Part shown: positions 3,710 to 23,612 of the stretch, one piece after another | How positions within the stretch are numbered: position 1 is the stretch's first letter | How the letters are laid out: every line of letters begins with the position of its first letter | Assembly: GCF_009687845.1 (NCBI RefSeq) | Contig: NZ_BLAD01000103.1 | Coordinates: 1-35,874 of the forward strand | Length of the DNA: 35,874 nt | Reading direction: 5' to 3' | Origin: Acrocarpospora corrugata | Lineage (GTDB): Bacteria; Actinomycetota; Actinomycetes; Streptosporangiales; Streptosporangiaceae | The notes under the pieces: generated by a model | Told to the model about the DNA's origin: nothing | Databases searched by the model: none | Seen by the model: the letters and a program-made list of their open reading frames with translations, nothing else | Position numbers and translations under genes: made by a program

Positions 3710-5160
3710 GCCGCTCCTAAAGACCACTGCTGGCAGTTGTTGTTGAGCCAGGTCCACAGGCGGACGTTCGCGCCGTCGCCGTCGCCGCAGTCGGCGACGT
3801 CGGCCACCTTGCCGGTCGCCGCGTTGACCAGGCGGACGAAACCGCCCGTCGTGTGCACCAGCCGGAAACGCTGGCAGGTGTTGTTGAGCCAGCTCCACTG
3901 CTGGATGTTGGTGCCGTCGGCGGAGCCGCAGTTGCTCACGTCCAGGACCTTGCCGCTGGCCACGTTGACCAGCCTGCTGGTGTCGTCGGCCTGGTCCTCG
4001 ATCCGCCAGCGCTGGTTGGTGCCGCCGGTGCAGGTCCACTGCTGGACGTTCGCGCCGTCCGCGCCGGAGGAGCCGGCCACCTCAAGGCACTTGCCACTGT
4101 TCCGGTTGACCAGCGTGTACGCGCTGGGGGTGCTGGCCGTCTCCCCGGCCGGAGCCGCCAGGGACACCCCGGTTCCGACCGGTGTGCCGAAGTTCGGGCT
4201 CCCGTCGGAGTTCCAGGTGAACCGCTGGGCGCGGGTGGTACGCCCGTTGTCGCAGCCGCCGCTGGAGAAACTGTTGGCGTGGTAGACGATCCAGTTCTCG
4301 GCGCCGTTGGGTGAGGTGAAGAAGCCGTTGTGGCCGGGGCCGTACACGCTGCCGGACTGCTGGAACACGGGTGTGGACTTCTTGGCCCACGAGGCGGCGC
4401 TGAGCGGGTTTCCGCCGTTGTAGGTGAGCTGTCCCAGCCGGTAGTTGGGCCCCCAGCAGGCGCTGGCCGAGTAGACGACGAACGTCTGCCCGTTCCGTTG
4501 CAGCGCCTCCGGCCCTTCGTTGACCGTGCCGCCCTGGGTCTCCCAGCTGTAGGTCGGGCTGGAGATCAGACTGAAGGCGCTCCCGCTGATCGTGTACGGA
4601 TTGCTCATCGGCGCGATCACCAGACTCTGCGCGCTGCCGTTCACGAAACCGCTGCCGAGCAGGTAGAGCGACCCGTTGAGCTGCATCGGACTGGCGTCGA
4701 TCAGCCAGCCCCCGGGCGAGAGATTGGACCCGGTCAGCACGTTCCGGTACGTGTACGGCCCGAGCGGATCGCTGCCCGCGCTCTCCAGCACATGCGTGCG
4801 CTGGCTGTCACAGCATGCCGCCCCGACCGCTCCCGCCGAGTAGTACAGATACCACCGCCCGTTGAACAGGTGGATCTCCGGCGCCCACATGTTGGTGCCC
4901 CGGGACGCCGTCGTGTCCTGCCAGACCTGCACACTCGGCGCAGTCGCAAGTCCCCCCAACGACGGAGATTTCCGCATGACGAGGGTGTTGGTGAACGAGG
5001 TGGTGATCAGGTAGTAGCTGCCGTTGTAGTAGCGCAGCCAGGGATCGGCGCCTTTCTGGGATTTGATCGGATTGGTGTACGACGTCGCCGCCGAGGCCGG
5101 GAGCCCGGGGGCCAGCCCGAGCAGCAGCACAGCGAGGACGACCAGGGATTTTCGGATCAC
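3706..5160 (-). CDS. secreted GH43 exo-alpha-arabinofuranosidase-like enzyme with C-terminal CBM13 lectin
   Basis: A 484-residue secreted protein started by GTG at 5160, five bases after a strong AGGAGGAG site; longer upstream frames lack a ribosome site. The signal peptide has hydrophobic core VVLAVLLLGL and likely cleavage near PASAA. The family 43 domain carries D39 in GADPWLRYY, D155 in LIDASPM and E215 in VNEGPEAL. The GADPW opening and VMRKSP segment resemble exo-1,5-alpha-L-arabinofuranosidases of streptomycetes. Three lectin repeats (NQRWRI, CQRFRL, CQQWSL) form the C-terminus. Its lectin module is at the C-terminus, whereas that of the downstream enzyme is at the N-terminus. Together they suggest endo plus exo attack on arabinan, which is inference from family. 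Confidence 0.88.
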   Translation of the reverse strand: MIRKSLVVLAVLLLGLAPGLPASAATSYTNPIKSQKGADPWLRYYNGSYYLITTSFTNTLVMRKSPSLGGLATAPSVQVWQDTTASRGTNMWAPEIHLFNGRWYLYYSAGAVGAACCDSQRTHVLESAGSDPLGPYTYRNVLTGSNLSPGGWLIDASPMQLNGSLYLLGSGFVNGSAQSLVIAPMSNPYTISGSAFSLISSPTYSWETQGGTVNEGPEALQRNGQTFVVYSASACWGPNYRLGQLTYNGGNPLSAASWAKKSTPVFQQSGSVYGPGHNGFFTSPNGAENWIVYHANSFSSGGCDNGRTTRAQRFTWNSDGSPNFGTPVGTGVSLAAPAGETASTPSAYTLVNRNSGKCLEVAGSSGADGANVQQWTCTGGTNQRWRIEDQADDTSRLVNVASGKVLDVSNCGSADGTNIQQWSWLNNTCQRFRLVHTTGGFVRLVNAATGKVADVADCGDGDGANVRLWTWLNNNCQQWSLGAA

Positions 5161-5172
5161 GACTCCTCCTGA

Positions 5173-5186
5173 TGTTAGCGCAACCA
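5173..5186 (-). promoter_or_regulatory. imperfect LacI-type operator in the leader of the GH43 operon
   Basis: TGTTAGCGCAACCA matches the general LacI-family pattern TGTnAnCGnTnACA with two mismatches and is a 10-of-14 symmetric dyad. It lies 12 bases upstream of the GTG start, overlapping the stretch just before the ribosome site. Carbohydrate-responsive LacI repressors commonly bind such sites near actinomycete glycosidase genes. No LacI gene is in the window. Confidence 0.45.
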
Positions 5187-5221
5187 TTTGTGCGCCCGAA
5201 GGTGCTCCGATGTTTCCTGGG

Positions 5222-5250
5222 ATGGTCGGCCCGCTATGCATGCCTGTCAA
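5222..5250 (-). promoter_or_regulatory. candidate promoter of the GH43 operon
   Basis: On the minus strand a perfect -35 TTGACA (5250-5245) is followed after 17 bases by GACCAT (5227-5222), which keeps only the second and last bases of a -10 consensus. Transcription would start near 5214, leaving a leader of about 54 bases that contains the downstream operator-like dyad. The -10 is weak, so the site is tentative. Confidence 0.35.
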
Positions 5251-5336
5251 CAACCTGCTCAACGCGCCAGCGGATTCATCGATGGCGCGTGAAACGTTCA
5301 CCGGACGAGGCCGGCCCCTTGAGAAGGCTCAGGCTT

Positions 5337-5350
5337 TGTGAGCGATAACA
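5337..5350. promoter_or_regulatory. LacI-family operator-like site (full consensus match)
   Basis: TGTGAGCGATAACA fits every fixed position of the LacI-family operator pattern TGTnAnCGnTnACA and resembles the E. coli lac operator with one central base removed. It lies between the unknown protein gene (ending 5391) and the GH43 operon, about 175 bases before the GTG start and about 90 bases upstream of the candidate -35 box. A role as an auxiliary operator is inferred from its partner site at 5173-5186. Confidence 0.5.
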
Positions 5351-5390
5351 GTCACTTCTTGCCGTCCGTCGAAGTACTATTCCATGATCA

Positions 5391-6371
5391 TCATGGCCTC
5401 GGGAAGACGGGGATCCGGTGGAGGCTGACCTCCAGAACGGTCGCCGTCGCCTTCGGCTCCTCGGTGAAGTAGAACTCGGCGGCCACCTCGCAGCTGTACG
5501 GCGCGCCCGCCACCTCCACCCGATACACCCGGGTATGCGGACTGTCCCAATGCACCCGGGGCGGCACGAACCCGGCCCCAAGCAGTGCGTCCAGATCAGC
5601 CCGGATCAACGCGGTCGACGACGGCAGCACCCGTACATACCTGAACCGCCCGGCCCGGCTGCTGAGCAGCAACTCGGCCGCCCCGGGCGGCGGCGGCTCC
5701 ACCGCGATCTCGCCCCGGCGGGGCACCAGCTCCCCGGGCAGCCCGAGCGCCCCGGCCACCAGTGCGGGATCGTCCATGGTCAACCGGCACAGCGTGTGCG
5801 CCCACGACAGCAGCACCCCGGCGTCCAGCGGCACCCCCGTCCGGCGCCGTCCCCCCGGCTCCGCCACCTCCAGGGGAACCACGGGCCGGACCCAGGCCGA
5901 CGGCCACTCCTCCAGGTCGAGATACTCGTGCCCGTTCACGATCAGCGTGTACAGCGGCTCGGCCGGGAAATCGTTCACCCGGATCGTCAGCGCGTCCCCG
6001 CCGACCGACGCCCGGTAGGGGAGTTCGCCGTCGCCGGTGTGCGACCACACGATCGCGACCGTGCTGAGGTCACGCGGGGAACGGTCGGCGACCAGTCCGG
6101 CCAGCAGGTCCGCCAGCTCGTCCGGCGCGCACCAGTCCTCCTGGTCGTGGCAGCTGACCCGGAGCCGGTTGCCCAGCCGGTCGAAGGAGAGCCGCTCGAA
6201 GCCGATGTCGTGCCCCGCGCGCAGGCGGATGATCACGTCGTGCACGTCGGCGGTGTCGAGCCAGCCGTACTCGATGCCGCTGATCACGTGCTCCCAGCAG
6301 CCGCGCAACCGGGGATCCGCCGGCCGGACCCGGCGAGCCGCGGCGAGCAGCTGGTGGTCGATGTCTGGCAT
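5391..6371 (-). CDS. conserved-looking protein of unknown function, 326 aa
   Basis: I do not recognise this 326-residue protein. It has no signal peptide, membrane segment or nucleotide-binding motif. It is soluble-looking and rich in acidic and tryptophan residues (WEHVISGIEYGWLD, DLEEWPSAWVRPV). The ATG at 6371 is preceded by AGGA eight bases upstream. Codon use is typical of the neighbours, with strongly G/C third positions, which supports a real gene. The stop lies inside a 15-base odd palindrome (5382-5396). It is transcribed toward the glycosidase operon, but the 230-base gap with operator-like sites argues that it is a separate unit. Confidence 0.75.
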   Translation of the reverse strand: MPDIDHQLLAAARRVRPADPRLRGCWEHVISGIEYGWLDTADVHDVIIRLRAGHDIGFERLSFDRLGNRLRVSCHDQEDWCAPDELADLLAGLVADRSPRDLSTVAIVWSHTGDGELPYRASVGGDALTIRVNDFPAEPLYTLIVNGHEYLDLEEWPSAWVRPVVPLEVAEPGGRRRTGVPLDAGVLLSWAHTLCRLTMDDPALVAGALGLPGELVPRRGEIAVEPPPPGAAELLLSSRAGRFRYVRVLPSSTALIRADLDALLGAGFVPPRVHWDSPHTRVYRVEVAGAPYSCEVAAEFYFTEEPKATATVLEVSLHRIPVFPRP

Positions 6372-6432
6372 GGGTGGATCCTTTCGACGACCGGCCGCCC
6401 GCTCATCTCAACGGACGGCCAGTCGCCGCGGC

Positions 6433-7466
6433 TCACGACACCGGATCGGTGATGCGGATGTCGAGAGTGGTGGTCGCGGAGGAAGCGGGGAGGCTGGCTG
6501 TGCCGATGATGGTCACGCTAGACGATTTGCCGTGCGATGGGGTGGTTTGGGGGTCGGCGGTGAATGTCACAGTAACCGACTCGCCGACCGATATCAGCTT
6601 CGATCCGAAGTTTGCTGTCACGCCCGGCGGGAGGTCGATGCCGGCGGTGTTCAGGGTCACTACCTGGCGTGAGTCGTTGAGGGGGAGTACGGAGATGACG
6701 GCGGTCGCCGTACCGCCCGGGGCGAGGTCGAGGGTGTCCTCCCGGGTCTCCAGGCGGAACCTGGGTGCGGTGACCGGGCGGATCGCCAGGGTGTGCGATG
6801 AGGTGCTGAAGGCGGGGCGCGGGCCCGCGTCGATCGCGGTCACGCCGGTGAGGCCGGGGACGCGGATCGGCGTCAGGCGGTTGGCCTGGGCGCCGTCGCC
6901 GAGCTGGCCCAGTAGTTGAAACCCCACGTCCAGACGGAGCCGTCGGAGCGGCGGGCCGCGCTGAGGCCGTACCCTGCCGTGACCTGGGTGACGCCGGTCA
7001 GGCCCGGCACCGGGCCCGGCGTCGACCTGGGGGTGGTGGTGCCGTCGCCGAGCTGGCCGTCGCTGTTGCCGCCCCACGCCCAGACGGTGCCGTCGCCGCG
7101 CAGGGCCAGCGTGTGGCGCACCCCCGCCGCGATCTCGGTGACGTCGGTCAGGTTGGGGACCTGGGTGGGTACGAGCGAACCGCCCCACGTGTAGACCGTG
7201 CCGTCGGCGGCGATGGCCGCACTGTGCTCACCGCCCGAAGCGACCTGGACGAACCCCAGGCCAGGACCACTCACCCCGACCGGAGTGCCGCGGTTGATCG
7301 TGGTTCCGTCGCCCAGTTGACCCGACCCGTTGAAACCCCAGGCGGCGGCGTGCGTCCAGCCGCTCGGCGGGTCGTTCGGCTTGGGAGCCGCGGCGGCCGT
7401 GCCCGCGACGGTCACGGCCATCAAGAAGATCATTCCAGCTTTGTACGTACGCCGTTGACGGGACAT
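6433..7466 (-). pseudogene. secreted RCC1-repeat protein disrupted by a one-base frameshift
   Basis: The start ATG at 7466 follows GGAGGTGA and opens a signal peptide (MIFLMAVTVAGTAAAA). RCC1-type repeats with the hallmark WGxNxxGQLGDG follow (WGFNGSGQLGDG, WGGNSDGQLGDG). In the last repeat the frame reads WGFNYW and then shifts: GQLGDG continues only in the next frame. This is explained by loss of one G in a G run at 6908-6910 (CCC on the plus strand). In frame one the protein stops at 6873. The second frame continues to 6433 through a beta-rich Ig/NEW3-like tail (for example GVTANFGSKLISVGESV). The intact protein would have about 345 residues and probably be an extracellular beta-propeller. 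A sequencing error in the homopolymer is equally possible. Confidence 0.8.
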
Positions 7467-7534
7467 CGGCTCACCTCCGCTGCCCATTGGACCGGTTCAA
7501 AGCCGCGGCGGACAGCGCCACTACCTGGCCAGAA

Positions 7535-8227
7535 TCAGTGCGTAGTGGTCGGGTTGAACCCCGCGACCAGGCACGGCAGGTCGTCCGCCCCGGTCAGGCT
7601 CACCTGGGCGATCCCCGACACCGGCACATCGATCATGCGCCCCCACGCGCCGGACCCGGACTGCACCGTGATCGTGCCCAGCGTCTCGTTCCGCCCGTCC
7701 CGCGTGCTCAGCCGGACCGTGTACGGCCCGGCGGTCGTCCCGTACTGAACGGTGATGAAAATCCACGAAGGCTTGCCCTGATACGCGAAGATGCGCCCCG
7801 CCGTGCTGCCGTCCGGGGCGGCGAACGTCTTGGCCGTCATGTAACGGCCGTTGGCCGCCGCCAGGGTACGGCGGTAGCTGTCGGCCACCCGGCGGTCGTC
7901 GGCGGTGAGCTGCCACATCCCGACCCCGCCCAGCGCCATCGCCACGACGAACGCCGCCGCCAGCCGCAACCGGCCGGGCCAGCGCCGCCGCCGCGGCGGG
8001 TTCAGCGCGGCCAGCACCTTCAGCTCGAACCCGGGCGGCGGCTCCACCGGGGGGACCAGCGGCAGCAGCTCGTCCACCACGAACGCGGCGGCGTCCAATT
8101 CGCGGTGGCACTCCGTGCAGGTGGCCAGATGCCTGAGCGCGCGGGCCCGTTCGTCGCCCGCGGCCACCCCGGCGGCGAGTTCGGGGATCAGCTCCCGTAC
8201 GGACGCGCACTCCGGTGTCTCATTCAT
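7535..8227 (-). CDS. transmembrane ZAS-type anti-sigma factor
   Basis: A 230-residue membrane protein. The N-terminal cytoplasmic domain has the zinc anti-sigma signature H33-x3-C37-x2-C40 (HLATCTEC). One membrane helix follows near residues 88-106 (LAAAFVVAMALGGVGMWQL), and then an extracytoplasmic domain of about 120 residues that is not the usual RskA domain. It should bind and silence the ECF sigma factor encoded just upstream. Its ATG overlaps the last eight bases of that gene, which indicates coupled expression at a fixed ratio. The external domain probably senses or is proteolysed in response to an envelope signal; the signal is unknown. Confidence 0.88.
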   Translation of the reverse strand: MNETPECASVRELIPELAAGVAAGDERARALRHLATCTECHRELDAAAFVVDELLPLVPPVEPPPGFELKVLAALNPPRRRRWPGRLRLAAAFVVAMALGGVGMWQLTADDRRVADSYRRTLAAANGRYMTAKTFAAPDGSTAGRIFAYQGKPSWIFITVQYGTTAGPYTVRLSTRDGRNETLGTITVQSGSGAWGRMIDVPVSGIAQVSLTGADDLPCLVAGFNPTTTH

Positions 8228-8765
8228 CGGTCACCCCCAGCTCGTGCCGCAGTCTGGCCAGTCCGCGCCTGATCCGGGTCTTGACGGTGCCGAGCGGGAT
8301 GCCCTCCCGGTCGGCGATCTCTTTGGCGGTGAGTCCGTAAAATACTGACATCACGATGGGGCGGCTCTGTTCCACCGGTAATGCCATTAAACCGGCGCGG
8401 AGCTGGTCGGATCCGTACGGACCTGCATCGAACGGATCCTCGGCCGGAGCCGGATGCAGCGCCCGCAGCAGCGGCTCGGGGTCGGCCCGGTGCTTGTGGC
8501 GCAGCCGGATGGCGTCCACCGCCAGGTTGCGCGTGATCGTGAGCAGCCAGGTCGCCACCCGCCCCCGCCGCGGATCGTACGTCGCGGCATGCCGCCAGAC
8601 CCGGACGAACGCCTCCTGCGCCACCTCCTCGGCCACGCCGATGTCGCCGACCACGCTCAAGGCCAGCCCGAAGACCCGCGCCTGAAATCTCCGGACAAAG
8701 GCCGCGGCGGCCTCCGCGTCCCCCGAAGCCATCCCCGCGACCAGCGATTCATCCGACAACGCCAC
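8220..8765 (-). CDS. ECF-family RNA polymerase sigma factor
   Basis: A 181-residue protein with the two ECF domains. Region 2 lies at about residues 20-90 (EEVAQEAFVRVWRHAATY, then WLLTITRNLAVDAIR). Region 4 lies at about 125-178 and contains the helix-turn-helix AKEIADREGIPLGTVKTRI. It directs RNA polymerase to stress-type promoters and is controlled by the overlapping anti-sigma gene. GTG at 8765 is taken as the start; no ribosome site lies in front of it, but a promoter of the type read by ECF factors ends eight bases upstream, so the message may be leaderless. An excellent GGAGGAG site further up is in register with an in-frame ATT (8780) rather than with ATG or GTG. Confidence 0.92.
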   Translation of the reverse strand: MALSDESLVAGMASGDAEAAAAFVRRFQARVFGLALSVVGDIGVAEEVAQEAFVRVWRHAATYDPRRGRVATWLLTITRNLAVDAIRLRHKHRADPEPLLRALHPAPAEDPFDAGPYGSDQLRAGLMALPVEQSRPIVMSVFYGLTAKEIADREGIPLGTVKTRIRRGLARLRHELGVTDE

Positions 8766-8798: not shown

Positions 8799-8825
8799 AG
8801 TGAATCTTTTGCTGATTTTTCTCCG

Positions 8826-8843
8826 TATAACCGGGCGTGGAGG
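8826..8843 (+). promoter_or_regulatory. -10 box and ribosome site of the oxidase operon
   Basis: TATAAC at 8826-8831 is a good -10 element; no convincing TTGACA lies 17-19 bases upstream (nearest is TGAATC at 8801). GGAGG at 8839-8843 stands five bases before GTG 8849. This decides the start: the alternative in-frame GTG at 8837 would have no ribosome site. The promoter diverges from the ECF promoter within 60 bases. Confidence 0.45.
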
Positions 8844-8848
8844 CCATC

Positions 8849-9901
8849 GTGAATGTGCGGGAATTCGAAGCCGCGGCGAAAGCCGTCCTCGATCCCGTGC
8901 ACTACGACTATTTCGCGTCCGGCGCGCAGGACGAGCTGACCATGCGGGCCAACGAGGAGGCGTTCCGCCGCCTCGCCCTGGTGCCCCGGATCCTGCGCGG
9001 CCACCAGCCCCCCGGCCTCGGCCGCACCGTGCTCGGCAGCCAGGCCTCCATGCCGATCATGATCGCGCCCACCGCGTTCCACCGGCTCGCCCACCCCGAT
9101 GGTGAGCGCGCCAGCGTCCGGGCCGCGGCCGAGGCCGGGGTCATCATGATCGCCGCGATGCTGGCCACCGTCGCGATCGAGGACATGGCCGCAGAGGCGC
9201 GCAAGGTCGCCGACGACCCCGCCCTCTGGTTCCAGCTCTACCTCCAGCCCGACCTGGGCTTCACCGAGGCGATCGTGCGCCGCGCCGAAGCCGCGGGCTG
9301 CGCGGCCCTGGTCGTCACGGTCGACTCCCCGGCGCTCGGCCGCAACGAGCGCGGCGACCGCAACGACTTCCACGACCTGCCGCCCGGCATCCGCTGCGAG
9401 AACCTGCGCGAGACCGGCGGCAGCGTACGCGGCGTGGTGCTCTCCCCGGAGATCTCCTGGCGGCACCTCGACTGGCTGCGCGGCGTCACCACGCTGCCGA
9501 TCGTGCTCAAAGGCGTCCTGCACCCGGCCGACGCCGAACTGGCGCTCCGGCACGGCATCGACGCGATCATCGTCTCCAACCACGGCGGACGCCAGCTCGA
9601 CGGCACCCCGCCCGCCATCGACCGCCTCCCGGTGCTCGCCGACGCCGTCGGCGGGGAGCTCCCGCTGCTCGTCGACGGCGGCATCCGGCGCGGCACCGAC
9701 GTGGTCAAAGCCCTCGCCCTCGGCGCGACCGCCGCCGCGATCGGCCGGCCGGTGCTGTGGGGCCTGGCCGCGGGCGGCCAGGACGGCGTCGCCCGGGTGC
9801 TCGCCCTGCTCCGCAACGAACTGCTCAACGCGCTCACACTGTGCGGCTGCGACTCGACCGAGTCGGTGCCGCGCGATCTCGTCCTCCGAGGAGCAATGTG
9901 A
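8849..9901 (+). CDS. FMN-dependent alpha-hydroxy-acid oxidase/dehydrogenase
   Basis: A 350-residue TIM-barrel flavoenzyme of the glycolate oxidase, lactate oxidase and mandelate dehydrogenase family, which oxidises 2-hydroxy acids to 2-oxo acids. Diagnostic sites: the substrate tyrosine in YFASGAQDE, QLYLQPD, the TVDSPALGRNERGDR loop, the FMN lysine in IVLKGVL, the catalytic pair H245 and R248 in SNHGGRQLDG, and the phosphate site DGGIRRGTDVVKALALGA. Length is normal for the family. Its stop overlaps the next gene by four bases (GTGA), so it is the first member of a coupled operon. The substrate is unknown; a hydroxy acid made or activated by the downstream enzymes is inferred. The related enzymes Hmo and MftD show that such oxidases work in natural-product pathways. 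Confidence 0.92.
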   Translation: MNVREFEAAAKAVLDPVHYDYFASGAQDELTMRANEEAFRRLALVPRILRGHQPPGLGRTVLGSQASMPIMIAPTAFHRLAHPDGERASVRAAAEAGVIMIAAMLATVAIEDMAAEARKVADDPALWFQLYLQPDLGFTEAIVRRAEAAGCAALVVTVDSPALGRNERGDRNDFHDLPPGIRCENLRETGGSVRGVVLSPEISWRHLDWLRGVTTLPIVLKGVLHPADAELALRHGIDAIIVSNHGGRQLDGTPPAIDRLPVLADAVGGELPLLVDGGIRRGTDVVKALALGATAAAIGRPVLWGLAAGGQDGVARVLALLRNELLNALTLCGCDSTESVPRDLVLRGAM

Positions 9902-10563
9902 AGATCATTGGAGTCGGCGTCGGCCGGACCGGGACGCTGTCCCTCAAATCCGCACTGGAAGTGCTCGGCCTCGGCCCGTGCTTCCACGGCCGGCACGTGC
10001 TCGACCACCCCGACCGGCTGGCCCTCTGGGAAGCGGCGTCCGCGGGTGAACCGGTGGACTGGCGTGCGGTGTTCCGCGGCTACCGCGCCACCGTCGACTG
10101 GCCCGGCGCGGCCTACTGGCGAGAACTGCTCGCCGCTTTCCCCGACGCCAAGGTCATCCTCACCGTCCGGGAACCCCAGGGCTGGTACGACAGCGTCGAC
10201 CGCACCATCTACCCGATGTTCGGCAGCGGCGCCGACCCGCGCGCCCAGCACGCGATGCGGATCGTGCCCGGCCTGGACGTGTTCACGGCCTTCCACCGGC
10301 GGATGATCTGGAACGGCTTCTTCGACGGCCGGTTCGCCGACCGGGACCACGCCATCGCCGTCTACCAGGAGCACAACGCCGCCGTGATCCGGGAGGTCCC
10401 CGCCGAGCGGCTGCTGGTGATCCAGCCGGGGGACGGGTGGAAGCCGCTGTGTGACTTCCTCGGGCTGCCGGTGCCGGTGGAATCGTACCCGCATCTGAAC
10501 GACCCGGGCCGGTTCTGGGGGCGGGTGGCGGCCCGGATGGAGGAAGCACTCCAGGAGGGATGA
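9898..10563 (+). CDS. sulfotransferase family protein
   Basis: A 221-residue protein beginning with the nucleotide-binding strand and loop GVGVGRTGTLSLKSAL, the 5'-phosphosulfate-binding signature of the sulfotransferase superfamily. The segment AKVILTVREPQGWYDSV corresponds to the 3'-phosphate site. The closest type known to me is the Sulfotransfer_4 branch (GRTGTLSLK plus FHGRHV), many members of which have unproven substrates. The start is GTG 9898, inside the stop of the oxidase gene, with GAGGAG a few bases upstream. It would transfer sulfate from PAPS to a hydroxyl of the pathway product, but catalysis has not been shown for many relatives, so that role is tentative. Confidence 0.82.
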   Translation: MKIIGVGVGRTGTLSLKSALEVLGLGPCFHGRHVLDHPDRLALWEAASAGEPVDWRAVFRGYRATVDWPGAAYWRELLAAFPDAKVILTVREPQGWYDSVDRTIYPMFGSGADPRAQHAMRIVPGLDVFTAFHRRMIWNGFFDGRFADRDHAIAVYQEHNAAVIREVPAERLLVIQPGDGWKPLCDFLGLPVPVESYPHLNDPGRFWGRVAARMEEALQEG

Positions 10564-11864
10564 TGGCGGTCCTGGTCATCGGGCTGCTGGCGGTGGCGGG
10601 GAGCCTGCCGTACTGGCTGCCGAGGGTGGTCGTCGGCCTGCGGATGTGGATCTTCGCCAGGATCAACGGCGAGGAGGGCATCCCGATCCCCGGCGAACTC
10701 GTGCCGATCGAGCGGTTCCGCCAGGTCTACGCCGACCCGGCGACCAACGGCCGAAGCCGCGGCGCCGCGCTGTCCGACCTGTTCTGGTACTGGCTGTCGC
10801 CCGGCGCGGAAATCCACCAGGAACACCTCGAACCCGGCGAACGCTACGACCAGGTAGCCCACGCCACCCGGCGCTTCCTCGCCCTGCCCGCCGCCGAGAT
10901 CACCGCGCTGGCCGTCCGCTGCGCCGCCCAGCTCCCGAACTCCCGGCTGGTACGGCTACGCGACCTGATGATGCCGCTCTGGGCGGAATTCTTCTACGAA
11001 CTCGTCTTCGCCGAACGCTGCCCACCCCACGCCCGCGACCTGATCGTCGCCAACGCCGACGACGTGGCGACCGCACTCAAATGCTGCGGCCTGCGCCACA
11101 TGAACCGCCGCCACCGCCTCACCGACTACCTGGCCACCCGCCTCGACGACGTACGGCAGCCGCTCCCGCCCGGCCTCACCCGCCGTGAACAGGCCCTCTA
11201 CCTGCAGGGCACCTTCTTCAACACCGCCGTCGTCCAGCAGTCGGAGGCGTCCGCGCACATCCTGATGACCCTCGCCCGGCATCCGGAGCTCCCCGCCGCG
11301 GACCTTGGGGCCGTCATCGACGAGACGTTCCGGCTCTACCCGCTGTTCGGCATCGCCCACCGGATCACCTCCGCCGACATCACGGTGGACGAAGCCACGG
11401 TGCTGCCCGCGGGCTCGGTCCTCTGCTTCAACTACCCCGCCTTCCACCGTGCCGGGTTCGACCGTCCCGACACGTTCGACCCCGGCCGCTGGGAGAGCCT
11501 GTCCGTCAGGCGGGCCAACCACATTCCGTACGGGATCGCGGCCAACCGGCCCTGCCCCGCCTGGCGGCTCTCCCCGATCGCCCTCCGCGCGGTGATCGAC
11601 GAACTGACCCGGCGGTTCACCTTCCACAGCACGGCCGCCCAGACCCGCTCGCTGCCCAACCGGGGCCCTTGCCTGATGCTGCCGCGCGGAACCAGACCCG
11701 CCCGGTCCGCGCTGCTGTTCCTGCGGGTCAGGGACCGCTGGGAAGACGTCGGCCGCGGGCTCGTCCAGCTCGTGCTCGGCAGCTACATGGTGTGGGACGC
11801 CCGGCGGAAACGCCTGTGCGAACGCCACTTCACCGGCGTCTCCACGTTCGAGCCGTTCCGGTGA
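10563..11864 (+). CDS. membrane-anchored cytochrome P450 with atypical heme loop
   Basis: A 433-residue protein. An N-terminal membrane helix (VLVIGLLAVAGSLPYWL) is unusual for a bacterial P450. The K-helix ExxR is E254-T-F-R257 in DETFRLYP, and the PERF-like segment is FDPGRW. The probable heme ligand is C331 in PYGIAANRPCPAW. Compared with the consensus FGxGxRxC, this loop appears to have one extra residue and an alanine where glycine is expected. AGGAGGG at 10553-10559 fits ATG 10563 better than ATG 10560. The start overlaps the stop of the sulfotransferase gene (TGATG). It probably hydroxylates or couples the operon product at the membrane; the substrate is unknown. Confidence 0.85.
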   Translation: MAVLVIGLLAVAGSLPYWLPRVVVGLRMWIFARINGEEGIPIPGELVPIERFRQVYADPATNGRSRGAALSDLFWYWLSPGAEIHQEHLEPGERYDQVAHATRRFLALPAAEITALAVRCAAQLPNSRLVRLRDLMMPLWAEFFYELVFAERCPPHARDLIVANADDVATALKCCGLRHMNRRHRLTDYLATRLDDVRQPLPPGLTRREQALYLQGTFFNTAVVQQSEASAHILMTLARHPELPAADLGAVIDETFRLYPLFGIAHRITSADITVDEATVLPAGSVLCFNYPAFHRAGFDRPDTFDPGRWESLSVRRANHIPYGIAANRPCPAWRLSPIALRAVIDELTRRFTFHSTAAQTRSLPNRGPCLMLPRGTRPARSALLFLRVRDRWEDVGRGLVQLVLGSYMVWDARRKRLCERHFTGVSTFEPFR

Positions 11865-11956
11865 ACCCCTTGCGGAGCACGGGTGAGACAGACGAGCATG
11901 ATCAACACGCATTCGGAGCGACTTCGTCGGACGTGGCTTTCCTCGTCGCGACTTGA
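11861..11956 (+). CDS. possible 31-residue peptide gene coupled to the P450
   Basis: A GTG overlaps the P450 stop (GTGA) in the same manner as the junction between the oxidase and sulfotransferase genes. It opens a frame of 31 residues ending SSDVAFLVAT, with an acidic middle (GETDEHDQHAF). There is no clear ribosome site, so it would depend on coupling. It could be a small precursor peptide or simply an untranslated gap; codon evidence is too short to decide. It ends 37 bases before the ligase start. Confidence 0.22.
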   Translation: MNPLRSTGETDEHDQHAFGATSSDVAFLVAT

Positions 11957-11993
11957 ATCCCGACGCCGTCGTCACCCCCTCAGGAGGAGATCG

Positions 11994-13415
11994 ATGTTCC
12001 CCGCCCCCGTCCTGGAAGCGCTGCGGATGACGCCGGGCCGTACCGCCATCGAGCACGGAGGCCGCGAGATCACCTGCGGTGAACTCCTCACCACGGTCGC
12101 CAGGATGGCCGCCGGCCTGCGCGCCGCCGGACTGGGCCCCGGCGACGGCGTCGCCCTGCTGACCGGCACCAACCCCGACGCGTACGCCGCCCACCTCGCC
12201 GCCCACGCCCTCGGCTGCCGCGTCGCCGCCTTCCGCCCCCGCTGGAGCGCCGCCCAGATCGCCGACGCACTCGGCCACCGCGTCGACGCTCTCATCGTCG
12301 AGCCCGGCGCCAGCCCCGGCCCCCTCGACGTCCCCATCCTCGACACCGCCACCCTGCGCAGCCACCCCGCAGAACCGCTGACCTCTAGCGCCCGCCCCGA
12401 CGACATCGCCCGCGTGACCTTCACCAGCGGCAGCACCGACCGTCCCAAAGGCTGCGCCCAGACCTACCGCGCTTTCAGCACCGCCTACCAGCGCGACGAC
12501 TGGCCGCCCCAGCTGGCCGCCCTGATGACCGCCTTCCAGCGCTGCCTCGTCTACGAGAGCCTGGCCAGCCCCGTCATGATGACCTACCTCGGCCGCTGCC
12601 TCGTCGCCGGCGGCACCGCCATCATGACCGACGAGAACCTCACCCCCGCCCTGCTGGAACGCCACCGCGTCACCGCCACCATGATGCCCGCGCCCCGCCT
12701 GCAGGTCCTGCTCGCCACCCAGCACTACCACCCCGCCGACCTGACCGCCCTCCGCGCCGTCGTCCTCAACGGCACCCCCGCCGACCCCGGCCTCCTCGCC
12801 GCCGCCATCGACCGCCTCGGCCCGATCATCTGGCAGGGGTACGGCAAAGCCGAAAGCGGCCTCATCGCCATGCTCACCCCCACCGACATCGCCACCTGCC
12901 CCGACGCACTCACCACCGTCGGCCGCCCCCTCCCCACCGTCACCCTCAGCATCCGCGACCACTCCGGCCAGATCTGGGTCCGCACCCCGCACATGATGTC
13001 CATGTACTGGAACAACCCCAGCCAGACCGCCGAAGCCGTCCAAGACGGCTGGCTCCACACCCGCGACACCGGCTACCTCGGCCCCGACGGCCTCCTCCGC
13101 CTAACCAGCGGCGAAACCATCCCCATCACCGCCGAAACCTGCTACCCCACCACCATCGAACGCCTCCTCACCACCCACCCCTCCGTCTCCCAGGCCTACG
13201 TCACCACCACCCCCGACTCCACCATCCACGCCTTCGTCGTCCCGACCCCCGGCCACCAAATCGACGACCAAGCCCTCCAATCCCTAATCACGTCCTCCTT
13301 AAGCGCTTCCCACACCCCCCAAACCATCACCGTCCTCACCACGGTCCCAACGACCCCCGCCGGCAAGCCCGACACACGCGCCCTCGCGACGCTTCTCCCA
13401 CTCCTCACCCCTTAA
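11994..13415 (+). CDS. AMP-forming acyl/aryl ligase (ANL superfamily)
   Basis: A 473-residue adenylate-forming enzyme, started at ATG 11994 six bases after AGGAGGA; a longer frame from 11883 lacks a ribosome site. Core motifs: A3 FTSGSTDRPKGC (with D where G is usual), A5 WQGYGKAESG, A7 WLHTRDTGYLGPDG and A10 TPAGKPDTRAL with the catalytic lysine. The A8 hinge is poorly conserved: the usual GRxDxxIK is replaced by RLTSGETIPITAET. It should activate a carboxylic acid as the acyl-adenylate and pass it to CoA, a carrier or an amine; no carrier-protein gene is in the window. It is the last gene of the operon and converges on the MocR gene. Confidence 0.88.
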   Translation: MFPAPVLEALRMTPGRTAIEHGGREITCGELLTTVARMAAGLRAAGLGPGDGVALLTGTNPDAYAAHLAAHALGCRVAAFRPRWSAAQIADALGHRVDALIVEPGASPGPLDVPILDTATLRSHPAEPLTSSARPDDIARVTFTSGSTDRPKGCAQTYRAFSTAYQRDDWPPQLAALMTAFQRCLVYESLASPVMMTYLGRCLVAGGTAIMTDENLTPALLERHRVTATMMPAPRLQVLLATQHYHPADLTALRAVVLNGTPADPGLLAAAIDRLGPIIWQGYGKAESGLIAMLTPTDIATCPDALTTVGRPLPTVTLSIRDHSGQIWVRTPHMMSMYWNNPSQTAEAVQDGWLHTRDTGYLGPDGLLRLTSGETIPITAETCYPTTIERLLTTHPSVSQAYVTTTPDSTIHAFVVPTPGHQIDDQALQSLITSSLSASHTPQTITVLTTVPTTPAGKPDTRALATLLPLLTP

Positions 13416-13536
13416 CCCGCCGCCGTTGCCCGGCATGACCGCTGATCTCGCTGAATTAGGGGTTCGTCCGTGACGACATACCTGTGCCTTCAGGTGTGAC
13501 CTTGTCGTACAGAACCCTCGATCTACCTGAGAAAGG

Positions 13537-13682
13537 TCCATCCCCGCGTGCGCGGGGCCGACCACCGGCGCGCTCATGGGCTCTGCTCCCATACGGGAAC
13601 ATCCCCGCGCGGGGATGGCCCGGCCATGCAAGAGGTCCTCGGCATCGACGCGACATCGGCCCCGCGTACGTGGGGATGGTCT
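13537..13682 (+). CRISPR. decayed type I-E CRISPR array remnant, three repeats
   Basis: Three degenerate copies of a 28-base, type I-E-like hairpin repeat lie at 13537-13564, 13598-13621 and 13655-13682. Their CCCCGCG arms begin at 13542, 13603 and 13660. The first interval is 61 bases. The second is 57 and becomes 61 once the four-base loop deletion in copy two (CCCCGCGCGGGG instead of 16 bases) is restored. Two 33-base spacers result (13565-13597 and 13622-13654). Copies two and three end GGGGATGG, as in actinomycete type I-E repeats. No cas gene, leader or further copy is seen. The relic lies in the 619-base gene-free stretch 13416-14034. Confidence 0.7.
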
Positions 13683-14034
13683 GCGGGCGAGAGTCTTGTC
13701 GCAGTACCACTCGAGCGGTGGGCTCATTCGGCGTAGTGGTGCTGGGCGCGGTGGGGTGGCCCGGGAATCATTGAGGTGTGTCAGAGCGTGTCAAGCGAGC
13801 GAGTCACCCCCCCGTGAGGCGATCTGCTACTGGCCCTGCGGGTACGTGGCGCTGTTGCCCGAGGGCGGCGCGGGCGGGCTCCTGGGCGAGGCCGTGGATC
13901 CGGGGGATGGTCGGGTGGGTGGTACCCGACGCTCGAAGCGCGGGCAGGTCACGGAAGTGCGGGAGGAGAGCGCCAGAGGCGATCGGGACGAGCGTGATGT
14001 CGGGCATCGGTCAGGCCATTGTGTTGGGCGTCGG
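13683..14034. other. gene-free stretch between CRISPR relic and MocR gene
   Basis: No open frame here has actinomycete codon bias with a ribosome site. The only structure seen is a 24-base-period direct repeat (TCGGTCAGGCCA at 14007 and 14031) whose second copy contains the stop of the MocR gene, and a short dyad CCAC...GTGG at 13707-13721. It separates two convergent genes, so it need not hold a promoter. Confidence 0.5.
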
Positions 14035-15462
14035 TCAGGCCACTGTTCGGGCCCGGCCGGCGGTTCGGCGGGCCAGGCCCTGTTCGTCGAGGGTGTTGGT
14101 GATGATGCGGAGGGCGCGGCGCAGGGTCATCTCGTCGAGGTGGGCGTAGCCGAGGATGATGCCGTTCTTGGGGCGGGCGCGGTGGTGGTAGTAGTCGGCG
14201 AGGTCGGCAGTGATGACGCCGCGGTCGCGGAGGGTGCGGGACAGGCGGGCGGCGGGGATGGAGGCGGGCAGGAGCAGGGTCGCCGAGGTGCCGGTGTCGG
14301 AGCCGAGGAGGCTGGTTTCCGGGTACGCGCCGAGGGACTGGCGGAGCAGGGTGCGGCGCTGGGCGTACAGGGTGGAGAGGCGGTCGATGCGGCGGGTGGC
14401 GCAGCCGGCGCGGAGGAGGTCGGCGACGACCTGCTGGCACATGGCGGAGGGGGGCTCGGGCGCGTACGGCACGCGGGCCTCGATGGTGGCGGCCAGGCGG
14501 CGGGGCACGACCAGGAAGGCGAGGCGGAGCGACGGGGTGAGCAGGTCGCGGAACGAGCCGAACATCATGGTGCGCGCGGGGTCGCCGGTGGCGAGGACGC
14601 TGGGGCGCGGGTTGACGTTCGGGTTGAAGACGCCGTCGAAGGCGGGTTCGATGACGAGGGCGTTGTTGTCGGCGGCCCACGCGGACAGGGCGTGCCGCCG
14701 GTCCACAGACATGCGGGCGCCGAGCGGGTCGTTGCGTTCTGGGGTGACGACGACGGCGTCGCAGCCGGGGGGGATCAGGTCGGCGCGGGCGCCGGCGCCG
14801 TCGACGGGGACGGGCAGGATGGTGGCGTGCCGGGCGAGGGCGTTGCGGAATTCGGCGGGGGCGGGGTCTTCCAGGCCGATGGTGACGGCTCGTTCGCCGG
14901 CGCCGGGTACGGCCAGCCGGAGCGCCTCGCCGTACCCGGAGACGACGATCACCTCGTGCTGGTCGAGGACCAGGCCGCGGGTGTCGCGGAGCAGGCCGGC
15001 GATCGCGTGGCGGAGTTCGGGCAGGCCGGCGGAGGGCGGTTCGTCGATGGGCGGCGCGTGGTGGCTGGCGCGGCGCCAGGCGGCGCGCCAGGCGGCGATC
15101 GGGAACGCTTCGGCGGTGAGCTGGCCGGGGGTGAGGTCGACGGGGCCCTGCGCGGGGGCGATGGCGGAGGTGCGGGGGGTGCTGCGGGTTTCGGCGCGGT
15201 CGCGGGGGGCCACGTAGGTGCCGGAGCCGTGTTTGCCGGTGACGTAGCCTTCGGCGAACAGGATCTCGTACGCGGCGAGCGCGACCCCCCGGGAGACCTG
15301 GAGCACCTCTGCCATGGTCCGGGTGGACGGCATCCGGGTGCCCGCGGCCAGTTGTCCCGATTCGATCGCCTGCCGGAGCTGGTGCGCCACCTGGTCGTGC
15401 AGCGGGGTGGGCAGGCTTCGATCCACTCGGATAGGAACGCGTAGTCCCTGCGGGTTGCGCAT
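14035..15462 (-). CDS. MocR-type GntR regulator with degenerate aminotransferase domain
   Basis: A 475-residue protein with an N-terminal GntR winged helix (PLHDQVAHQLRQAIESGQL, then TRMPSTRTMAEVLQVSR) and a fold-type I aminotransferase-like domain. In MocR proteins such as GabR and PdxR that domain binds pyridoxal phosphate to sense amines or vitamin B6. Here the Schiff-base lysine of GTFSKxLxPxLR is missing: the segment reads GSFRDLLTPSLRL with D306 at the lysine place. The PLP-ring aspartate motif (usually EDDYDSEF) reads EPAFDGVF, and the usual HQxPTG reads RNDPLG. The fold is kept but PLP chemistry is probably lost. ATG 15462 is chosen because the usual MocR N-terminus begins there; ATG 15576 is an alternative. 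Confidence 0.88.
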   Translation of the reverse strand: MRNPQGLRVPIRVDRSLPTPLHDQVAHQLRQAIESGQLAAGTRMPSTRTMAEVLQVSRGVALAAYEILFAEGYVTGKHGSGTYVAPRDRAETRSTPRTSAIAPAQGPVDLTPGQLTAEAFPIAAWRAAWRRASHHAPPIDEPPSAGLPELRHAIAGLLRDTRGLVLDQHEVIVVSGYGEALRLAVPGAGERAVTIGLEDPAPAEFRNALARHATILPVPVDGAGARADLIPPGCDAVVVTPERNDPLGARMSVDRRHALSAWAADNNALVIEPAFDGVFNPNVNPRPSVLATGDPARTMMFGSFRDLLTPSLRLAFLVVPRRLAATIEARVPYAPEPPSAMCQQVVADLLRAGCATRRIDRLSTLYAQRRTLLRQSLGAYPETSLLGSDTGTSATLLLPASIPAARLSRTLRDRGVITADLADYYHHRARPKNGIILGYAHLDEMTLRRALRIITNTLDEQGLARRTAGRARTVA

Positions 15463-15600
15463 GAAAAGCCCCCACTTCGCGAAGCGTGGCCGCTCCTCGA
15501 AGTGGAACGACGGCACGGATGGCTGCGGTGGGCCGCCCCCTGTTCGGCCGCCCCCGTCAGCGGGAAGGCGTGACATTCCGTTCCATGCCGTGGAACCTCG

Positions 15601-21530: not shown

Positions 21531-23612
21531 ATGGATGTCATCTCGGCCGGCGCGGGCATATTAGTCGCCGTCATCCTGCTGATCGTGATCGGCCTGGTGT
21601 TCGTCATCAGCCGGCTGTTCCACAAGGTGGAGCAGGGTAAGGCGCTGATCGTCTCCAAGGTGCGCCGGGTGGACGTCACCTTCACCGGCGCGGTGGTGCT
21701 GCCGGTGGTGCACAAGGCCGAGGTGATGGACATCTCGGTGAAGACCATCGAGATCGAGCGCTCAGGCAACGAGGGCCTGATCTGCCGGGACAACATCCGG
21801 GCCGACATCCGGATCACCTTCTTCGTCCGGGTCAACAAGACCGCCGAGGACGTGGTGAAGGTCGCCCAGGCCATCGGCACCGCGCGGGCCAGCGACGAGG
21901 GCACCCTGCAGACGCTGTTCAACGCCAAGTTCTCCGAAGCGCTCAAGACCGTCGGCAAGCACCTGGACTTCGTCGACCTGTACACCAAGCGGGACGAGTT
22001 CCGGGACCAGATCCTGCGCGTCATCGGCACCGACCTCAACGGGTACAGCCTGGAGGACGCGGCCATCGACTACCTGGAGCAGACCCCGCTCTCCAAGCTC
22101 GACCCGGCCAACATCCTGGACGCCCAGGGCATCCGCAAGATCACCGAGCTGACCGCGATCGAGCACGTGCGCACCAACGAGTTCCAGCGCAACGAGGAGA
22201 AGGAGATCACCCGGCAGAACGTGGACGCCCGGGAGGCCATCCTGGAGCTGGAACGGCGGCAGGCCGACGCGGAGACCAAGCAGAAGCGCGAGGTCGAGAC
22301 CATGCAGGCGCGCGAGGAGGCGGAGACCGCCAAGGTCCGCGCCGAGGAGCGCCTCAAGGCCGAGGCCGCGGCGGTGAAGACCGACGAGCAACTCGGCGTG
22401 CAGCGGCAGAACCGGGACCGGGAGATCGCCGTCGCGCAGAAGAACCGCGAGCGGGTCATCGCCATCGAGACCGAGCGGATCGAGAAGGACCGCCTGCTCG
22501 AAGTGATCGCGCGGGACCGGGAGACCGAGCTGTCCAAGATCTCCAAGGACAAGGAGCTCGAAGTCGAGAAGCGGGCCATCGCCGAGGTGATGCGGGACCG
22601 GATCGCCGTCGACAAGACGGTGGCCGAGCAGGAGGAGAGCATCAAGCGGCTGCGCGTGGTCGAGGAGGCCGAGCGCACCCGCCAGGCCATCGTCATCGGC
22701 GCCGAGGCCGAGGCCCAGGAGAACCTGGTCAAGGACATCAAGGCGGCCGAGGCCGCCGAGCAGGCCGCCAGGTTCCGGGCCCGCGAGGAGCTGGTGCTGG
22801 CCGAGGCGCGGCAGCAGACCGCCGAACTGGACGCCCGCGCCAAGATCCGGCTGGCCGAGGGCGTGCAGGCGGAGGCGGCCGCCACCGGGCTGGCCGAGGT
22901 GCAGGTCAAGGAGCGGGACGCGGCCGCCATCGAGAAGGTCGGCAGGGCGCAGGCCGCCGTCGACCGGGAGAAGGCGCTGGCCGGCGCGGACGGCACCCGG
23001 GAGCGGTTGAAGGCGGAGGCGGAGGGCGAGCAGGCCAAGGCCATGTCGGCCGCCGCGATGGTGGGCGAGCGGCTGAAGGCCGAGGCCGAGGGCCTGACCG
23101 AGAAGGCGGCCGCGATGGCCGCGATGACCGACGCGAGCCGGGGGCACGAGGAGTACCGGCTGCGGCTGGAGGCGGAGAAGGAGATCCGGCTGGCCGGGGT
23201 CAGGGCGCACCGCGAGGTGGCCGAGGCGCAGGCGGCCGTGCTCTCCGCCGGGCTGCAGAAGGCCAACATCGACATCGTCGGCGGGGACTCCATGTTCCTC
23301 GACAAGCTGGTCGGGTCGATCGCGATGGGCAAGAGCGTGGACGGGTTCCTGGGCGGGTCCGAGGCGATGCAGGCGATCGCGGCGCCGTACCTGAACGGGT
23401 CGGAGAGCATCGCCGACGACCTGGCGAAGATCATCGGCGGGCTGGACAGCGCGGACGTGCGGAACATGACGCTGTCGGCGTTCCTCGTCAAACTCATTCA
23501 GTCGGGCGGGGAGGACACCGACAAGCTGCGTGAACTTCTCAGCACCGCGCAGCGGCTCGGCGTGGCCGAGGCTCCGGTGGCCGCGCTCGGGCCCGTCAAG
23601 ACGAAGTCGTGA
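21531..23612 (+). CDS. flotillin-family membrane scaffold protein (YqiK-like)
   Basis: A 693-residue protein. One N-terminal membrane helix (ILVAVILLIVIGLVFVI) is followed by the SPFH/PHB domain (about 40-200: GKALIVSKVRRVDV, DNIRADIRITFFVRV, EALKTVGKHLDFVDLY). A very long charged coiled coil (about 215-560) is rich in the EA/AE repeats typical of flotillins (EAEAQENLVKDIKAAEAAEQ, RLKAEAEGEQAKAM). A conserved flotillin tail with KANIDIVGGD ends the protein. Flotillins assemble membrane microdomains and recruit partners. Here the start follows directly on the OB-fold stop, and the end overlaps the ATPase start by four bases (GTGA), so the three products are probably made together. Confidence 0.93.
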   Translation: MDVISAGAGILVAVILLIVIGLVFVISRLFHKVEQGKALIVSKVRRVDVTFTGAVVLPVVHKAEVMDISVKTIEIERSGNEGLICRDNIRADIRITFFVRVNKTAEDVVKVAQAIGTARASDEGTLQTLFNAKFSEALKTVGKHLDFVDLYTKRDEFRDQILRVIGTDLNGYSLEDAAIDYLEQTPLSKLDPANILDAQGIRKITELTAIEHVRTNEFQRNEEKEITRQNVDAREAILELERRQADAETKQKREVETMQAREEAETAKVRAEERLKAEAAAVKTDEQLGVQRQNRDREIAVAQKNRERVIAIETERIEKDRLLEVIARDRETELSKISKDKELEVEKRAIAEVMRDRIAVDKTVAEQEESIKRLRVVEEAERTRQAIVIGAEAEAQENLVKDIKAAEAAEQAARFRAREELVLAEARQQTAELDARAKIRLAEGVQAEAAATGLAEVQVKERDAAAIEKVGRAQAAVDREKALAGADGTRERLKAEAEGEQAKAMSAAAMVGERLKAEAEGLTEKAAAMAAMTDASRGHEEYRLRLEAEKEIRLAGVRAHREVAEAQAAVLSAGLQKANIDIVGGDSMFLDKLVGSIAMGKSVDGFLGGSEAMQAIAAPYLNGSESIADDLAKIIGGLDSADVRNMTLSAFLVKLIQSGGEDTDKLRELLSTAQRLGVAEAPVAALGPVKTKS

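Follow-up and report, generated by a model that had tools for sequence, protein, structure and literature searches.

The genes analysed here form a locus that we tentatively read, with somewhat less than even confidence, as an ECF-sigma-linked variant of a self-contained oxidative module, in which an FMN alpha-hydroxy-acid oxidase (HAO) and a membrane P450 lacking the acid-alcohol pair would be coupled through peroxide. This hydroxylase/oxidase pairing is favoured because the pair-less P450 adjoins an oxidase that is expected to be of the H2O2-releasing type. The locus lies in the window, by which we mean the whole 35,874-nucleotide stretch of Acrocarpospora corrugata DNA that was analysed. 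The enzyme set is uncharacterised but widely conserved in bacteria, and its unusual P450 may run on the peroxide of the HAO. No description of the set was found in open-access full text (a coverage outside which most subscription papers fall), in line with the original prediction, which recognised no pathway of this composition.

Four genes with Pfam matches follow one another on the plus strand: HAO (8849-9901; PF01070, FMN_dh, E 2e-118; GGAGG at 8839-8843), a PAPS-type sulfotransferase (ST; 9898-10563; PF17784, Sulfotransfer_4, E 3e-63), the P450 (10560-11864; PF00067, E 4e-12, C-terminal half only) and an AMP-forming acid ligase (LIG; 11994-13415; PF00501, AMP-binding, E 4e-46; AGGAGG at 11982-11987). 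These families and their order had been correctly anticipated. The start/stop overlaps thought to join all four genes exist at the HAO/ST (GTGA, 9898-9901) and ST/P450 (ATGATG, 10560-10565) junctions and not at the ligase, whose best-supported start, ATG at 11994, is 129 nt 3' of the P450 stop. Divergent from the set, as also predicted, the minus strand encodes an ECF sigma factor (8220-8765; Sigma70_r2/r4) and an anti-sigma factor (7535-8227) with a zf-HC2 zinc finger (PF13490, E 3e-6), one hydrophobic segment and an extracytoplasmic tail, the topology being judged by eye from the translation; sigma regions 2 and 4 together with a zinc-finger membrane anti-sigma mark the two as a sigma/anti-sigma pair. 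The anti-sigma is 86-90% identical to its copies in three sister species (loci L039-L041), and omega for the sigma factor against these species is 0.10-0.12.

Co-occurrence was scored for the 80 best P450 relatives over 9 kb around the P450. HAO lay within this distance in 75 of the 80, the ligase in 58 and ST in 42; a flavoprotein, FOX, was present in 70 loci, and a cation:proton antiporter belonged to the gene set in 57, so that the predicted lack of a transporter stands for the window proteins scanned and not for the relatives. The commonest layout is ST / ligase-flavoprotein-HAO-P450-antiporter-two-component system. ECF sigma homologues fell inside the 9-kb range in 6/80 loci, and were present in L148 and L151 too; the window locus is thus a rarer, ECF-sigma-linked subtype of a widespread module that extends over many genera. 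Where HAO and the P450 lie close together on one strand (62 pairs), they overlap in 52, and HAO still adjoins the P450 when divergent (L114, L150). Four Nonomuraea loci (L062, L094, L104, L115) and L147 showed no HAO over the 9 kb around the P450, and a local HAO is therefore not obligatory; the sequence of L100 was too short to score. Divergence was correlated between HAO and LIG (r 0.91) and between P450 and HAO (r 0.85). The order HAO-ST-P450-LIG recurs in L039-L041, L065 and L148 and is not confined to this strain. FOX has an FMO/reductase-like fold, with ferredoxin-NADP reductases among its fold matches, and could, from this modelled likeness, supply electrons to the P450. The window carries no FOX gene. 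A FOX contributed from elsewhere in this genome was considered and rejected: a 45% homologue lies on C49, and the surrounding 16 kb contain none of the other module proteins that were searched for. No recurring pathway gene was seen among 20 flanking proteins scanned in L111, L107, L075, L110 and L103. We note two aldo/keto reductases in L110 and an ABC transporter in L075, immediately upstream; a search of a plasmid collection returned one unannotated record.

Both enzymes encoded ahead of the P450 have intact family signatures. In HAO, D159, K221, H245 and R248, which we take to be the catalytic residues, are unchanged in 75/75 sequences and, with the PF01070 domain, place it in the FMN_dh family; omega against the sister species is 0.14-0.18, and it scores under the threshold of each of the 8 NCBIfam models listed. 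The site aligned with a Trp of human HAO1 is Ala in 61/75 and Leu in 14/75 HAO sequences, which suggests larger substrates. The best solved relatives are oxidases, and by this homology HAO should release hydrogen peroxide. In ST (omega 0.15-0.17), G7, G9-T11, T13, D67, R91 and S99 are unchanged in 43 sequences; the conserved Gly and Thr residues, R91 and S99 presumably form the PAPS-binding motifs, which together with the PF17784 match identify a Sulfotransfer_4 protein.

The P450 belongs to its superfamily by its haem-ligand Cys332 and ExxR motif (255-258; E255/R258), both kept in 81/81 family members, by a score above the Pfam cut-off and by a Foldseek probability of 1.00 to P450s. The I-helix acid-alcohol pair that marks canonical O2-activating P450s is replaced by V225-Q226 in 81/81 family members, in a register set by sequence alignment and residue count without a solved structure. 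The same replacement recurred in 14 of the 15 loci added to these (4 duplicates), L160 giving no match to the search expression, and the acid-alcohol pair was present in 8/8 other P450s tested as controls from the same genome. The haem loop, NRPCPA, is unusual. The predicted model has a C-terminal helical extension and an N-terminal helix (2-36), which is consistent with the membrane anchor proposed originally. CYP152 enzymes, which we take to lack the canonical pair, have an Arg in the active site where the acid would stand. Among the 50 Foldseek matches listed, CYP152N1 (5yhj_B) had the top query TM-score (0.56) and the lowest rmsd (4.6); CYP3A4 headed the E-value ranking of the same matches, and by target-normalised TM-score a Thermus P450 (1wiy, 0.61) exceeded CYP152N1 (0.58). 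The sequence profile also placed CYP3A4 first (3.9e-14) and CYP152N1 about thirtieth (1.4e-7). This rank and the Val/Gln at the site rule out membership of CYP152, which serves as an analogy only.

Some O2-dependent P450s likewise lack the acid-alcohol pair, and one explanation for the data is that this is an ordinary O2/NAD(P)H P450 that draws on redox partners from elsewhere in the genome or, among most relatives, on FOX, with a proton relay through Gln226 or a substrate group, HAO catalysing the next step and H2O2 being waste. The nearness of the sequence profile to CYP3A4/CYP11B, the reductases among the FOX fold matches and the five loci in which HAO is not near the P450 speak for this, as do the many other P450 matches listed for the genome (31), so that redox partners are presumably encoded as well; no ferredoxin or P450-reductase family was found among ten window proteins scanned. 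Set against it are the close pairing with HAO in most loci and the exchange of both acid and alcohol for invariant residues, unlike the 8/8 P450s of the same genome, and on balance we consider it rather doubtful. CYP74 and CYP8A are rearranging or dehydrating haem-thiolate enzymes, and the lost pair and odd haem loop would also suit an enzyme of that kind, acting on a hydroperoxide or an activated acid with no monooxygenase step; a lipoxygenase-like family was not found in the scanned window proteins or the 20 flanking proteins of five other loci, and such an activity seems improbable.

A candidate ECF-type promoter motif, TGAATC-N17-CGTA, precedes HAO-ST-P450 on the plus strand (8801-8827) and is the sole match in the window, where 0.02 were expected. 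With a spacer of 17 or 18 nt it occurs 13 times in the 81 sequences, 12 times directly 5' of HAO, LIG, FOX or P450 and once 5' of a membrane-protein gene (M177), its copies falling in 8 relatives; in L039-L041 the upstream regions of HAO and LIG share it, and in the later-added L148 it precedes HAO. It was not found in L151 and L161, although both have HAO-ST adjacency, nor in L112, where the sigma pair is present. As the motif was derived by alignment of the same loci in which it was counted, a 9-versus-72 Fisher comparison and an estimate of motif placement are post hoc, and neither corrects for common descent. Independent evidence comes solely from 11 loci added afterwards that share no exact 200-nt probe match with the earlier set; among these the motif was present in 1/3 with HAO-ST adjacency and in 0/8 others. 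Sixty shuffled hexamers averaged 1.1 matches, three reaching 11, 14 and 15; the count by itself is not exceptional, and it is the position and spacing of the motif that carry the argument. By called starts the motif ends 8-9 nt 5' of P450 in L114 and HAO in L065, a gap short for a promoter unless these starts are misassigned. Five other matches lie in genome G000, and more lie outside the module in genus genomes.

The ligase stands apart. In L039-L041 it forms a unit of its own, preceded by a further copy of the motif, 3' of two minus-strand genes that follow the P450, and because these genes intervene a single continuous four-gene operon is ruled out as the sister-species state. Relative to these loci, deletions here took out the two genes: a 65-nt scar (11842-11906, strand not assigned) is 91% identical to part of M177, which in the sisters is sited here on the minus strand, and in the aligned plus-strand ligase motif (11954-11973) TGAATC remains while the spacer and CGTA are deleted. 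M177 was found in 4/81 sequences, M146 in the same 4 with one weak match in L088; this scarcity, and the occurrence of M177 homologues outside the module in each of the five genus genomes that were searched, weaken the case for either as a dedicated module part. ANL acid ligases are recognised by their A3, A5, A8 hinge and A10 Lys motifs. In the window copy only, A3 carries G149D (Gly in 58/59) and the A8 hinge, GRSRDVILVN in L039, reads SGETIPIT, with Gly-Arg deleted and the second Arg (Arg in 57/58 aligned) changed to Gly; A10 Lys458 is retained. Omega is 0.48-0.52 between the window and the sisters, against 0.20-0.31 among the three sisters, and a relative-rate test was marginal (chi2 5.6, 2.8 and 1.5). 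The ligase is thus probably decaying in this strain. In L065 and L148 it lies close behind the P450, and the arrangement therefore varies. The originally predicted four-gene operon, read here as one that activates, hydroxylates, oxidises and sulfates a small acid into an excreted product, accords with the identical gene order in five other loci and with the motif common to HAO and LIG in the sisters; the separate ligase there, and its erosion here with its own motif broken, make it quite unlikely. A functional link between the genes, the ligase included, keeps the support of co-occurrence, correlated divergence and the common motif, and the predicted sequence of reactions is one possibility. 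The original prediction did not mention the non-canonical P450, the larger common module or the promoter motif.

Returning to the peroxide-coupled reading, we propose that an envelope signal would free the sigma factor from its membrane anti-sigma, and that sigma would read the TGAATC-N17-CGTA promoter to transcribe HAO-ST-P450. The P450 would then use H2O2 to hydroxylate a carboxylic acid beside its acid group, and HAO, with O2, would convert the 2-hydroxy acid to the 2-oxo acid and give back H2O2, so that peroxide would be recycled. With PAPS as donor, ST might sulfate a hydroxyl group on either the substrate or the product; the ligase, where intact, might form the AMP ester of an acid for an amide or thioester. 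The broader possibility, of which we are less confident, is a natural peroxide-recycling pair: a new family of membrane-anchored P450 peroxygenases with a co-encoded HAO regenerating H2O2 from the product of the P450, in a standalone module of actinomycetes, Paraburkholderia and an Acidobacteriota MAG under two-component or ECF-sigma control. The usual constraint on P450s is their redox partners, and on peroxygenases the damage done by peroxide; if the reading is true, an operon found in nature that both uses up and renews H2O2 within a single pathway would provide a ready-made biocatalyst, and a natural equivalent of a cascade that we know solely in engineered form. The module recurs in many genera and no assigned product was found for it; the promoter motif would offer a direct genetic handle to switch it on.

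Among known systems, the CYP152 peroxygenases (P450SPalpha, P450BSbeta, CYP152N1) resemble the P450 in the loss of the pair and in having the top query TM-scores among the 50 listed matches; the locus P450 differs in its profile ranking, in the Gln at the aligned site, in its N-terminal membrane helix and C-terminal extension, and in that its peroxide use is putative. HAO resembles human HAO1, lactate oxidase and 4-hydroxymandelate oxidase in domain family and catalytic residues, and departs from HAO1 in the Leu/Ala at the Trp position. The closest solved sulfotransferases to ST are 9kf1 (6.5e-60) and SgdX2 (8y9p, 3.5e-56), with the Sulfotransfer_4 enzymes. The closest solved relative of the ligase, PDB 6sq8/6h1b, was deposited as 'Fatty acid CoA ligase' (E 1.4e-55) and is, we assume, the McbA amide bond synthetase; the window ligase differs from McbA in lacking the conserved hinge residues, and amide formation, by analogy, is putative. 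An artificial cascade of a CYP152 with an alpha-hydroxyacid oxidase and internal H2O2 recycling is reported to work in vitro (PMC5768024); it pairs enzymes of both types and has the chemistry proposed here, but was assembled in vitro, whereas here the enzymes are natural gene neighbours.

The four protein types of the original prediction were confirmed on this contig of 35,874 bases, part of a 9.27-Mb genome: an FMN-dependent alpha-hydroxy-acid oxidase (HAO, FMN_dh; 8849-9901), a sulfotransferase (ST, Sulfotransfer_4; 9898-10563), a P450 (10560-11864) and an AMP-forming acid ligase (AMP-binding; 11994-13415), all on the plus strand. Start/stop overlaps had been claimed throughout; they hold for HAO, ST and P450 (GTGA, ATGATG) and not for the ligase, whose best start, ATG 11994 preceded by AGGAGG, lies 129 nt past the P450 stop. 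An RCC1-repeat protein gene (6873-7487) is located immediately downstream of the zf-HC2 anti-sigma gene (7535-8227, minus strand) and on its strand, and a 65% homologue adjoins the anti-sigma gene in the sister-species locus L040. Palindromic GC-rich repeats at 13535-13679 (CCATCCCCGCGTGCGCGGGGCCGA with a 92% inverted copy at 13656-13679, and a similar unit at 13600-13620) are reminiscent of degenerate type I-E CRISPR repeats. A MocR-type regulator with GntR and aminotransferase domains (14035-15576) and a 1715-aa protein with AAA domains and DUF3686 (23609-28756; E 2.8e-208) are also encoded.

Scanning one genome per species gave 273 stretches encoding P450 relatives, of which the best 80 were kept; all locus counts refer to these closest relatives. 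The nearest are Acrocarpospora species (81-83% identity), which marks the source as an Acrocarpospora-like actinomycete; module members reach Paraburkholderia (L111) and an Acidobacteriota MAG (L103), and the P450 is present at E 1e-30 in 13 of 394 sampled genomes of the class, its own genome counted. When genes were counted whose centre lies no more than 9 kb from that of the P450 gene, with some loci truncated at contig ends, HAO was present in 75 of the best 80 loci, an FMO-like flavoprotein (FOX, Pyr_redox_3) in 70, a histidine kinase in 62, a response regulator in 61, the ligase in 58, a cation:proton antiporter in 57 and ST in 42. The commonest layout among them (25 times) is ST (minus strand), ligase, FOX, HAO, P450, antiporter, response regulator and histidine kinase. 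Of the 62 HAO-P450 pairs lying close together on one strand, 52 overlap. Distances co-vary between P450 and HAO (r 0.85), HAO and ligase (r 0.91) and P450 and FOX (r 0.84), values matched by 0 of 500 permutations; shared species history contributes to these correlations. In an Amycolatopsis MAG (L110), FOX-HAO-P450 is immediately preceded by two aldo/keto reductase genes (5042-7142), a possible hint to the substrate.

Cys332 and the ExxR motif are present in all 81 family P450s (80 loci and the window), and the position of the acid-alcohol pair, registered by sequence, is Val225-Gln226 in all 81; the pair itself was retained in 8/8 P450s of the same genome (the first 8 of 31 matches). The P450 motif matched in 14 of 15 further loci, L160 being the one without a match to the search expression. 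An AlphaFold2 model (pLDDT 81, pTM 0.85) has an N-terminal helix (2-36). Its I helix is long (208-240), residues 382-429 form a helical extension at the C terminus, and Foldseek placed the model in the P450 fold. CYP3A4 headed the E-value order, CYP152N1 (0.56) and P450BSbeta (0.55) had the highest query TM-scores among the 50 matches listed, and a Thermus P450 (1wiy, 0.61) had the highest target TM-score. The model thus gives a weak hint towards CYP152. Membership of CYP152 was rejected, as the profile search put CYP3A4 first and CYP152N1 about thirtieth. Taken together, these rankings make the P450 a separate, distant branch.

No variation was seen at HAO residues Asp159, Lys221, His245 and Arg248 across 75 sequences, the window's and those of 74 loci (L043 was excluded for an in-frame stop). 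Where human HAO1 has Trp, the module enzymes have Leu (14, including all nine of the subtype with adjacent HAO and ST) or Ala (61), and because of this replacement a 2-hydroxy acid larger than glycolate would fit as substrate. PAPS-type residues are retained in 43/43 ST sequences. FOX, which has no gene in the window, gave a model (pLDDT 72) similar to flavin monooxygenases and thiol or ferredoxin reductases, and may resemble human FOXRED2; the protein of L055 (7255-8823) shares 58-93% identity with homologues across loci, and 65-66% even in Paraburkholderia and the Acidobacteriota MAG. Because the oxidase, an H2O2-releasing type, and the P450, which lacks O2-activation residues, are in most cases translationally coupled, and no redox-partner family was recognised among the window proteins scanned, the sequences point to peroxide coupling of P450 and HAO. 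Most economically, the P450 would alpha-hydroxylate the acid and HAO would then oxidise the product and give back H2O2. However, a nearby HAO is absent from four Nonomuraea loci and from N. gerenzanensis (L147). We infer the substrate of the module, the order of steps and the site of sulfation.

The window has a minority layout, shared by 9 of 81 sequences, in which ST adjoins HAO and two-component genes are lacking. A homologue of the ECF sigma factor (8220-8765, minus strand, divergent from the set) occurs in six of the nine, the window included, and was not detectable in L049, L057 and L059; L112 has the sigma pair without this layout. Alignment of upstream regions of the loci yielded an ECF-type promoter-like motif, TGAATC-N17-CGTA, with a single match in the window (8801-8827; 0.02 expected). 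Across the 80 loci and the window (1.63 Mb), spacers of 16, 17 and 18 gave 0, 10 and 3 matches, the other spacer lengths between 8 and 27 together gave 8, and the reversed pattern gave 0. Twelve of the 13 copies end 8-58 nt upstream of a set gene: HAO in the three sister species (L039-L041), L065 and the window, the ligase in L039-L041, FOX in L049, L057 and L059, and P450 in L114; the thirteenth, on the minus strand of L065, precedes the gene M177. The motif is thus found in 9/9 HAO-ST-adjacent sequences versus 0/72 others, a post hoc count, as it was derived from these loci. Among 15 loci fetched later (four of them duplicates), L148 bears out the prediction, with HAO-ST-P450-ligase, the sigma/anti-sigma pair and the motif upstream of HAO; in L151 and L161, also HAO-ST adjacent, no match had fewer than two mismatches, and the remaining 8 non-duplicate loci had no match.

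In L039-L041 two minus-strand genes, M146 and M177, separate P450 from the ligase, which is preceded by its own motif copy. In the window only a 65-nt stretch of M177 was found (11842-11906), and the ligase motif has kept TGAATC and lost the spacer and CGTA. The window ligase has Gly-Arg deleted from A8, Gly for the second A8 Arg (Arg in 57 of 58 aligned sequences), Thr for the A8 Asn (Asn in 56/59) and Asp for the A3 Gly (Gly in 58/59); its frame is open and Lys458 is retained. Ligase omega is 0.48-0.52 between the window and the three sisters versus 0.20-0.31 among the sisters. HAO (0.14-0.18), ST (0.15-0.17) and sigma (0.10-0.12) are constrained, P450 values are 0.36-0.40, and the ligase relative-rate test reached the 5% level against only one of three sisters. 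On these sequence comparisons we read the ligase as probably undergoing loss since a deletion. The region 12001-14000, which spans this ligase with its lost motifs, is strongly C-biased (GC skew -0.23). M177 (L039 11640-12173, minus strand) is a membrane protein of 177 aa in which several His motifs can be made out by eye; it matches no Pfam family and has homologues in 5/5 genomes of the genus.

No paper describing the gene set was found in the open-access literature, and as far as that search reaches nothing on the gene combination, the P450 branch or its control seems to have been published. The parts of the module belong to known families. McbA/ShABS, as described in PMC10804368, served as the ligase comparison, and a P450/HAO peroxide loop has, according to PMC5768024, already been built in vitro.
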